From Actinomycetota bacterium (GTDB lineage Bacteria; Actinomycetota; UBA4738; HRBIN12), in assembly GCA_035697485.1 (NCBI GenBank), contig DASSCU010000015.1, positions 124,001-188,000 on the forward strand: 64,000 bases of DNA, in the 5' to 3' direction. The number at the start of each line of letters is the position of its first letter. Within the stretch, counting starts at the first letter, position 1. Below are positions 1 to 2,959 of this stretch, one piece after another. Below the pieces are notes generated by a model. The model was not told the origin of the DNA and searched no databases. It saw only the letters and a program-made list of their open reading frames with translations. The position numbers were made by a program, and so were the translations under genes.

Positions 1-163
1 ACAGCTCGGTGCTTCAGACGGAGCCGAAGTCGAAGACGTAGAACGCCAGCAGCAGCGGTCCTCCCTCGAGGAGGTGCTCGAGCGAGACCTTCTCCTCGAA
101 CGTCTTGCGGAGCGTGAACGTCGGCGCCCGATCGCCGACCCCGGGTCGACCGGCGTCAGTCAT
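1..163 (-). CDS. Peroxiredoxin (AhpE/Prx-like), partial; in-frame UGA at the peroxidatic-cysteine position
   Basis: This is the start of a thioredoxin-fold peroxidase that reduces peroxides with a catalytic Cys or Sec. The N-terminus has the Prx pattern VGDRAPTFTL, then LLLAFYVFDFGSV. Codon 50 is TGA (bases 14-16), and translation continues as STEL to the window edge. In the family the same place reads F-x-F/W-x-x-V-C-x-x-x-L, so the UGA sits exactly at the peroxidatic Cys and the downstream EL also fits. ATG at 163 overlaps the cyclase stop by 8 nt, so translation is probably coupled. Read conventionally it is a 49-residue ORF ending at 14. The rest of the gene and any SECIS element lie outside the window. 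Sec use is inferred; a truncated pseudogene is the alternative. Confidence 0.7.
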
Positions 164-848
164 CCAGCACCGCCACCGCACGGGTCGGGCCGCCGTGCGC
201 GCCCTTGAGCTTCAACGGCAGGCCGATGAAGGTGAACCGGCGCCCCACCACGCGATCGAGGTTCGTGAGGTTCTCGTAGTGGGTGATGTGGTGGGCGCGT
301 CCCATCATGTGGATCGGGTAGACGCGGCTCGAAGGGTTGTCGGGCGTACACGTATCGATGCCGAACGACTTCACACCTCGCGCCACGATCCAGTCGGCGA
401 CATCGGCCCCCAGGCCCGGGAACTCCCTGACGTACTCGGGGGTGCCCCCGTACTTCGTGGCCGTGCCCGTGTGGAAGAGCACGATGTCGCCACGTCGCAC
501 CTCCTGCTCCGCATCGGTCAGACCCTGCTCCACGCGCTCGACGCCGATGTCGGTGCGCGGCTCGGCGCCGGTGACGTCGATGCAGACCGCCTCGCCGTAG
601 AACAGGTCGAGCGGCATCTCGTCGATCGTCTGGGCCGACGGGTCGGGGTCGAGGTGGCTGAACGAATCGACGTGGGTCGGACCGTTGTCGTTCATCAGGA
701 ACCCCTTGGTCTGGAACGAGAACCCACTGTCGAACCGAGGCGCCGTCTCTTCGTGCGACGCGTGGTCGAAGAGCACGGTCTTCAGGTGCCCGGGGTAGAC
801 CATCATCCCCGTGTAGATCTCCTGTGAAAGATCGACGATCCTCGACAT
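156..848 (-). CDS. Cyclase family protein (kynurenine formamidase-like metal hydrolase)
   Basis: A 230-residue member of the cyclase (PF04199) fold, which includes metal-dependent formamidases, isatin hydrolases and related ring-opening amidases. The metal site resembles the family HxGTHxDxPxH signature, here written GPTHVDSFSHLD near residues 54-65. A second conserved stretch is FHTGTATKYG. ATG 848 is chosen because a GGGAG ribosome site lies about 6 nt upstream and the protein then starts MSRIVDLSQ, as family members do. It follows an SDR gene by 11 nt and overlaps the peroxiredoxin downstream, so it is third in a four-gene operon. The substrate is unknown. Confidence 0.85.
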   Translation of the reverse strand: MSRIVDLSQEIYTGMMVYPGHLKTVLFDHASHEETAPRFDSGFSFQTKGFLMNDNGPTHVDSFSHLDPDPSAQTIDEMPLDLFYGEAVCIDVTGAEPRTDIGVERVEQGLTDAEQEVRRGDIVLFHTGTATKYGGTPEYVREFPGLGADVADWIVARGVKSFGIDTCTPDNPSSRVYPIHMMGRAHHITHYENLTNLDRVVGRRFTFIGLPLKLKGAHGGPTRAVAVLDD

Positions 849-859
849 CGGAACTCCCT

Positions 860-1639
860 TCAGTAGGTCACCATGCCGCCGCTCACGTTCAGGTCGATCC
901 CCGTGATCGCCGCGTTGCCCCCGATCGTCAACGAGACCACGGCCTGCGCCACCTCGTCGGGTTCCACCAGCCGACCGATCGGGATCTGCTCGACCATCTC
1001 CCGGCGCGCCTGGTCGACCGAGACACCCCTGCCCTTCGCCTGGGCTTCGAACGCCCACTCCATGCGCTCGCCCGCCACGGGACCCGGCGACACGAGGTTC
1101 ACGCGCACGCCCAACGATCCAGTCTCCAGCGCGAGGGTGCGCACGAGGCCGACGAGGGCCAGCTTGCTGGCGGCGTACGGGGTCCGACCCCAGAGCGGTC
1201 GCTTCCCGGTCATCGAGCCGATCACGACGATCGCACCCGACCCCCGCTCGAGCATCGAGGGCAGGAACGCTCGCGCGCACAGGAATACCCCGGTGACGTT
1301 CACGGCGAACGTCGCATCCCACTCGTCACGGCCGAGCTCCCAGAGTGGCCCCGAGGGCCCTCCCACGCCGCTGTTGGCGACCAACGCATCGACCCTGCCG
1401 AAACGTTCCAGCGATCGACGGGCGAGCTCGTCCACCTGCGCCTCGTCGGTGACGTCGGTGGGCACGCACGACGACCCGGCTCCGATCTCCTCGAGCGACG
1501 CCGCGGTGGCCTCGAGGCCATCGGCGTCGCGCCCGGCCAGCACCACGTCGGCCCCTGCACGCCCGTGCGCGAGTGCGGTCGCTCGACCGATGCCCCTGGT
1601 CGCACCCGTCACGACGACGACCGGACGACCCACCGTCAT
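860..1639 (-). CDS. SDR family NAD(P)-dependent oxidoreductase
   Basis: A 259-residue classical short-chain dehydrogenase/reductase. It has the nucleotide-binding TGATRGIG motif near residues 11-18, the structural ANSG variant of NNAG, a catalytic Ser in VVIGSMTG, and the YAASK Tyr/Lys pair. The C-terminus ends GIDLNVSGGMVTY, typical of SDRs that oxidise secondary alcohols or reduce ketones. It starts 3 nt after the HisD-like gene ends and is followed by the cyclase, so it probably oxidises an intermediate of the same pathway. Substrate not deducible. Confidence 0.9.
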   Translation of the reverse strand: MTVGRPVVVVTGATRGIGRATALAHGRAGADVVLAGRDADGLEATAASLEEIGAGSSCVPTDVTDEAQVDELARRSLERFGRVDALVANSGVGGPSGPLWELGRDEWDATFAVNVTGVFLCARAFLPSMLERGSGAIVVIGSMTGKRPLWGRTPYAASKLALVGLVRTLALETGSLGVRVNLVSPGPVAGERMEWAFEAQAKGRGVSVDQARREMVEQIPIGRLVEPDEVAQAVVSLTIGGNAAITGIDLNVSGGMVTY

Positions 1640-1642
1640 GGG

Positions 1643-2959
1643 CTACCGGATCGACTCGTCCGGTGGGATCGCCGGCATCGCGTCGGGGAACCGCTCGGGA
1701 TCGAGGCGGAGCCTCGCGGTGAGCGCGTGGCCGAACATCAGCTCCGCATCTGAGATCGCCGCGGCCGTCGCCGCGACCCGCGCGGAACCCTCGGCCGAGA
1801 CCCGTTGATAGGTGACCGTCTTCAGGAACTTCCCGACCCACAGACCGCCCGTGTAGCGGGCTGCCCGGCGGGTCGGCAGCACGTGGTTCGTACCGATCGA
1901 CTTGTCGGAATACGCCACGGTCGCATGGGTGCCGAGGAACAGGGTGCCGTAGGAGCCCAGCCGCTTCAGGTACTGATCGGGGTCCTCGGTGTGGATCTCC
2001 AGGTGCTCGGGCGCGATCTCGTCGGCGACCTGAGCGGCTTCCTCGTCGTCTTCGCACACGATGATCGCTCCGTGGTCGCGCCATGCGGTGCCCGCGACGT
2101 CCTTCGTGGGCCACTCCCCCTCGAGCCATCGGTCCACGGCGTCCGCCACCTCGCGGCCCAGTCGCTCGGACGTCGTGATGAGCGTCGCCGGCGAGGTCGG
2201 CCCGTGCTCGGCCTGGCCGAGGAGGTCGGCGGCCACGAGGTCGGGGTCGCCCGTGTCGTCGGCGAGCACCATGACCTCGGTGGGGCCCGCGAGCAGGTCG
2301 ATGCCCACCGTGCCGAAGAGCTGTCGTTTCGCCTCGGCGACGTAGGCGTTGCCCGCACCGATCAGCATGTCGGTGGGCTCGAGATCCTCGATGCCGAAGG
2401 CCATCGCCGCGAACGCCTGCACGCCGCCGATACAGAAGATCTCGTCGGCCCCGGAGGTGGCCATCGCGTAGAGCTGCGGTGGGTGCATCCCGCTCGGATC
2501 ACGAGGGGGGGCGCACGCCACGACGCGCTCGACGCCGGCCACGCGGGGCGTCACCACCGTCATGATCGCCGAGGCGATCAGCGGGTAGAGGCCACCCGGC
2601 GAGTAGGCGCCGACCGATGCCACCGGCAGGAACCGTTGGCCCAGCGTGACCCCCGGCAGCGTCTCCCACTCCATGTCGACGAGGGTGGAGCGCTGAAGCT
2701 CGGCGAAGTTGCGCACCTGCGCCTGGGTGAACGCGACGTGCTCTCGGAGCTCGTCGCTGAGCGCGTCCTGGGCCGCGAGGATCTCGTCCTGGGAGACGCG
2801 GAACCGCTCGGGGCTCCAGCCGTCGAACCGCACGGAGTATCGCCGGACCGCCGCCTCCCCCTCCCGCTCGACCGCGGAGAGGATCTCGCTCACCGTCGCC
2901 CGGATCTCCTCCCAGGCCTCCGGGGACACACCGGTGCGTTCCTTGAGGTAGTGCGCCAC
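1643..2959 (-). CDS. Histidinol dehydrogenase family protein, sulfopropanediol-dehydrogenase (HpsN)-like
   Basis: A 438-residue HisD-fold NAD-dependent dehydrogenase. It carries the zinc-site QAEHGP stretch and the IAPEHLEIH active-site region. The C-terminal half reads TNHVLPTRRAARYTGGLWVGKFLK, shared by catabolic HisD paralogs annotated as sulfopropanediol dehydrogenase, rather than the terminal region of biosynthetic enzymes. No histidine biosynthesis gene is nearby, which supports a catabolic role. GTG 2959 is preceded by AAGGGAGG at good spacing. It is the first gene of the leftward operon HisD-SDR-cyclase-Prx, driven from the divergent promoter near 3010. Sulfonate specificity is only a suggestion by similarity. 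Confidence 0.85.
   Translation of the reverse strand: MAHYLKERTGVSPEAWEEIRATVSEILSAVEREGEAAVRRYSVRFDGWSPERFRVSQDEILAAQDALSDELREHVAFTQAQVRNFAELQRSTLVDMEWETLPGVTLGQRFLPVASVGAYSPGGLYPLIASAIMTVVTPRVAGVERVVACAPPRDPSGMHPPQLYAMATSGADEIFCIGGVQAFAAMAFGIEDLEPTDMLIGAGNAYVAEAKRQLFGTVGIDLLAGPTEVMVLADDTGDPDLVAADLLGQAEHGPTSPATLITTSERLGREVADAVDRWLEGEWPTKDVAGTAWRDHGAIIVCEDDEEAAQVADEIAPEHLEIHTEDPDQYLKRLGSYGTLFLGTHATVAYSDKSIGTNHVLPTRRAARYTGGLWVGKFLKTVTYQRVSAEGSARVAATAAAISDAELMFGHALTARLRLDPERFPDAMPAIPPDESIR

Follow-up and report, generated by a model that had tools for sequence, protein, structure and literature searches.

Gene and reading frame

The window is the whole 64,000 nucleotide stretch of DNA that was analysed (G000:C15:124001-188000), part of a 3.41 Mb genome in 64 contigs. 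A peroxiredoxin gene with an in-frame TGA starts at its left edge on the minus strand, downstream of a run of predicted catabolic genes (Table 1).

Table 1. Features at the left edge of the window and on the adjoining part of contig C15.
Feature	Position	Strand	Remarks
Predicted Sec-peroxiredoxin gene, 5' part, codons 1-54	1..163	minus	PF00578 match spanning the window edge, single TGA
Predicted Sec-peroxiredoxin gene, remaining codons and stop	contig C15:123684-124000, left of the window		Frame open beyond base 1
In-frame TGA, codon 50, peroxidatic position, predicted to be read as selenocysteine	14..16	minus	Opposite the catalytic Cys of solved peroxiredoxins; stop in 21/21 family members
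bSECIS-type hairpin CUGUCCC-AGUU-GGGGCAG	1..4 (first bases; other 14 left of the window); L008:9987-10004	minus	
Upstream cyclase/arylformamidase-type hydrolase	156..851	minus	Arylformamidase-like, below cut-off; order kept in L065
SDR oxidoreductase, same gene run	860..1639	minus	Conserved in L065
HisD-family dehydrogenase, same gene run	1643..2959	minus	TIGR00069 above cut-off; conserved in L065

Read from base 163, the gene runs MTDAGRPGVGDRAPTFTLRKTFEEKVSLEHLLEGGPLLLAFYVFDFGSV-TGA-STEL. The original prediction was that the frame would stay open for about 110 further codons beyond the left edge. On contig C15 we found 109 more open codons past the in-frame TGA, followed by a TGA stop, with neither a frame break nor a loss of similarity left of base 1. 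The read-through product has 159 residues, the UGA being residue 50. A genome-wide search with PF00578 matched the whole gene, with exactly one TGA inside; ordinary annotation splits it at this codon into pieces of about 50 and 100 residues.

The nearest ortholog (L065) is 76% identical overall, and 82 of the 109 residues past the TGA are the same. Nucleotide differences in that part fall 20/10/40 on the three codon positions, mostly on the third, and we conclude from the comparison that the frame past the TGA is under protein-level constraint. Together with a stop at codon 50 in all 20 relatives described below, this constraint means that the in-frame TGA and its conserved downstream frame are not due to chance.

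The ATG of the peroxiredoxin gene (163-161) and the stop codon of the cyclase gene (158-156) lie in ATGACTGA, giving the 8-nt overlap that had been noted earlier. The overlap probably reflects translational coupling of the two genes.

Protein fold and active site

The read-through protein scored 89 bits against AhpC-TSA (cut-off 26) and is assigned to this domain. Its AlphaFold model (pLDDT 85, pTM 0.85) has a peroxiredoxin fold, with 3hjp as the top match (TM 0.87) and AhpE at TM 0.82-0.85. When a profile of the family was searched against solved structures, it matched Sulfolobus and Aeropyrum proteins of the PrxQ type and the AhpE of Mycobacterium tuberculosis, and residue 50 lined up with the catalytic Cys; the UGA is thus at the peroxidatic position, as first proposed. 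The protein passed no curated NCBIfam cut-off, and it reached 45.4 bits against the PrxU model NF040737, whose cut-off is 270.

An AhpE-like active-site pattern had also been proposed, and this stands in part: the UGA falls on the catalytic residue, but the Pro and Thr of the pattern are replaced by Val and Gly. The protein reads VFDFGxxU and does not match Pxxx(T/S)xxC/U. Val43 and Gly47 are invariant in the 19-row family alignment and are also present in L124 and L125. The family motif is FYVFD(F/Y)GxxU, compared with FYPxDWSxxC in Cys homologs, so that Pro has become Val and Ser/Thr has become Gly. According to a 2026 review, PxxxTxxU is highly conserved in Sec peroxiredoxins and crucial for peroxide binding (PMC13188914); a Sec peroxiredoxin family without the Pro and the Thr/Ser departs from this rule. 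The catalytic Arg is kept, as Arg123 is invariant in the 19 rows and lies opposite the corresponding Arg in AhpE and the PrxQ-type proteins. Cys102 was considered as a universal resolving residue and rejected, as other residues take its place in L075-L081 and L037; this speaks against an intramolecular 2-Cys cycle shared by the whole family.

More distant Sec peroxiredoxins from other families of the phylum (L056, L058, L060 and L062) have the active sites FYTHDFSPVU, FYVHDFSPIU and FYVFDFSPTU. These form two groups, reading FY(T/V)HDFSPxU and FYVFDFSPTU, that lack the Pro and keep the Ser.

Conservation of the stop codon among relatives

A scan of about 85,000 genomes, using peptide patterns that exclude residue 50 and so carry no bias toward Sec over Cys, gave 17 loci with 52-76% identity. 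Codon 50 is a stop in every one of them, TGA in 15 and TAG in the two from Geodermatophilus ruber and Geodermatophilus sp. YIM 151500. Searching the phylum added one member with TGA (G194). Four members, two of them new, were found in 115 genomes of the Geodermatophilus family; they are at least 73% identical and all have TAG, and the other matches in those genomes have no stop and about 36-43% identity.

The family thus comprises 21 genes, the window gene and 20 relatives, all from Actinomycetota. The proposal that residue 50 is encoded by UGA holds for 17 of them, the four Geodermatophilaceae using UAG instead, and Cys occurs at this codon in none of the 21. In a tree of 52 rows, a branch with support 100/96 separates the 23 Sec rows from the rest, and the 19 rows of the family group at 99/98.

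bSECIS-type hairpin

A bSECIS stem-loop had been anticipated downstream of the UGA. We found a 7-bp stem from 9 nt past the stop codon, with AGUU as its loop at a distance of 16 nt from the codon. These features agree with the published bSECIS model (PMC13188914), which has a loop of 3-9 nt located 16-37 nt from the codon with a G within its first two positions, a stem of 4-16 bp and an MFE of at most -7.5. No SECIS family of Rfam matched the hairpin region.

The same stretch is constrained by the protein sequence LSQLG, and we therefore take compensatory changes, not conservation, as evidence for the hairpin. In 16 ungapped rows, 87.5% of the hairpin cells are paired and three pairs have changed on both sides; none of 500 shuffles reached the covariation score, and every slid register scored far lower. 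A stem of at least 6 bp is present in 20 of 21 members, compared with 6 of 29 Cys homologs (21%); at the other codons of these genes the rate was 25%. Three members (L075, L076 and L078) have a similar stem with a loop one base longer. Plain local folding energy was rejected as evidence since it is uninformative in GC-rich genes (z-score only -1.8), and covariation and the stem-length control were used in its place.

Selenocysteine machinery

All four sel genes expected of a genome that encodes selenocysteine were found. In brief, selA (417 bits), selB (322 bits) and selD (383 bits) are over their cut-offs in the genome search; selA and the adjoining selB are on contig C48, selD is on C6, and a tRNA-Sec with anticodon UCA is on C58. 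A tRNA-Sec(UCA) is also present in the genomes of 13 relatives, and both Geodermatophilus genomes tested have the anticodon CUA. The active-site stop follows the anticodon, UGA going with UCA and UAG with CUA. One family with either UGA or UAG at the active site, in step with its tRNA-Sec, offers a natural test of selenocysteine coding. The MAGs of three relatives (L070, L075 and L080) gave no true tRNA-Sec, two having no match and one matching a tRNA-Ser only, probably because these MAGs are incomplete. The tRNA matches L097-L099 are tRNA-Ser.

Of 397 genomes sampled from the phylum, 200 were found to carry a tRNA-Sec. The window's genome also has a second probable selenoprotein gene on contig C25 (G000:C25, L007:1303-1893), encoding a lipoprotein-like thioredoxin-fold protein with WU(TGA)TTC in place of WCxxC. 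A 6-bp hairpin follows its UGA, and many UGA-containing homologs occur in the phylum.

Proposed function and alternative explanations

The conserved stop, the hairpin and the sel genes bear out the proposed candidate, and the peroxiredoxin is very probably a selenoprotein, as firmly as this can be said from sequence. With considerable confidence, we suggest that the gene encodes a 159-residue AhpE/PrxQ-like Sec-peroxiredoxin that reduces peroxides. In this scheme the UGA would be recoded by the genome's own SelA, SelB, SelC and SelD, directed by the bSECIS hairpin. A peroxide would be reduced through the Sec selenolate, giving a selenenic acid, which may in turn be reduced by an external thiol, since the family has no second conserved Cys. 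Peroxidase chemistry appears likely, although the activity is not assured since the canonical Pro and Thr/Ser are absent. That the gene appears translationally coupled to the catabolic genes upstream weakly suggests that the enzyme may detoxify peroxides or other electrophiles from that pathway.

The protein could be a selenoprotein and yet not a peroxidase, its VFDFGxxU pocket serving another selenol reaction, for example the reduction of an electrophile specific to the pathway or of a disulfide-type substrate. The invariant pocket lacks the Pro and Thr called crucial for peroxide binding (PMC13188914), and the gene lies in catabolic clusters with varied enzymes, both of which fit such a role; the fold and the invariant Arg are, however, those of peroxiredoxins, and the sister Sec homologs keep the Ser (DFSP), suggesting gradual change of a peroxidase. 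We consider a non-peroxidase role unlikely, while giving it appreciable weight. We further speculate, tentatively, that the family has become Sec-obligate, with a pocket rebuilt around selenium: the Pro and Thr that in peroxiredoxins activate the Cys are gone in all members, and no Cys version survives. The enzyme would also have left general peroxide removal for one particular substrate of catabolic pathways. A pocket without two residues thought essential in peroxiredoxins lets one ask what selenium makes dispensable.

Plain readthrough of the stop, or a regulatory truncation, with another amino acid inserted by suppression, seems very improbable, as the stop is exactly at the catalytic residue and is followed by a bSECIS-like hairpin, the codon fits the tRNA-Sec anticodon (UGA/UCA, UAG/CUA) and the genome has the sel genes. 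Least probable of all is that the TGA, one base away from TGC and TGT in a draft genome, is a misread Cys codon or the real stop of a pseudogene. Every one of 21 independent genomes has a stop there, and two kinds of stop codon occur among them, which refutes this reading; the constrained downstream frame and the conserved RNA hairpin also oppose it.

Neighbouring genes

Neighbour genes were called by GC3, an all-against-all comparison of open frames being swamped by shadow frames. The locus of L065 shares the cyclase, SDR and HisD-family genes and an M24 hydrolase with that of the window gene. An M24-family hydrolase is found near the Sec-peroxiredoxin gene in seven loci (L008:7511-8728, L065, L066, L070, L071, L072 and L074); the L008 copy reaches none of the NCBIfam cut-offs (PepQ, DoeA and DddP). 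Aldehyde dehydrogenase and enoyl-CoA hydratase genes are located beside the peroxiredoxin gene in L066 (by Pfam) and in L069 and L073 (by similarity). In L068 the neighbours are FAA hydrolase and 3-hydroxyisobutyrate-dehydrogenase-like genes, in L071 a TauE-like exporter, with similar genes in L072 and L074, and in L075 and L078 ABC-transporter-like genes with a TPP enzyme.

Naming the pathway was considered and rejected: most family matches of the neighbours are generic or below cut-off, and we therefore claim no substrate. As the neighbours vary between lineages, the tie to catabolism is weak beyond the nearest ortholog.

Relation to known selenoproteins

Sec peroxiredoxins with UGA at the peroxidatic position are already known, as the original prediction stated (listed in PMC13188914; NCBIfam NF040737). 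The present family shares with the Sec-Prx/PrxU proteins (PF00578, TxxU) the peroxiredoxin fold, the UGA-encoded Sec at the peroxidatic position and a downstream bSECIS. It differs in having neither Pro nor Thr in the motif, in its shorter AhpE/PrxQ-like chain, in its score of only 45 bits to NF040737 and in that no Cys homolog was found inside the family. By profile and by fold, the nearest solved proteins are M. tuberculosis AhpE and the archaeal PrxQ/Bcp4-type proteins, which are of equal length and have the same catalytic Arg; these have Cys and PxxxTxxC, whereas this family has Sec and VxxxGxxU. A literature search gave no paper joining selenoprotein, selenocysteine and Acidimicrobi-.

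Sec-peroxiredoxins and a UAG-encoded AhpC are already published, and the family with the altered pocket is a new variant. This probable selenoprotein family reaches no NCBIfam cut-off, and its altered pocket is the part worth specialist attention.

UAG read as Sec in Geodermatophilaceae, and an AhpC selenoprotein of Blastococcus saxobsidens, have been reported (PMC5330540). Compared by description only, that AhpC comes from the same bacterial family as our four UAG members and likewise combines AhpC/TSA, tRNA-Sec(CUA) and bSECIS; the part of PMC5330540 that deals with it makes no mention of UGA members of the present family. The four peroxiredoxin genes of Geodermatophilaceae with UAG-encoded Sec are L067, L068, L124 and L125. 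In the G. ruber gene the terminal stop is also UAG, which raises the question of how the two UAGs are told apart.
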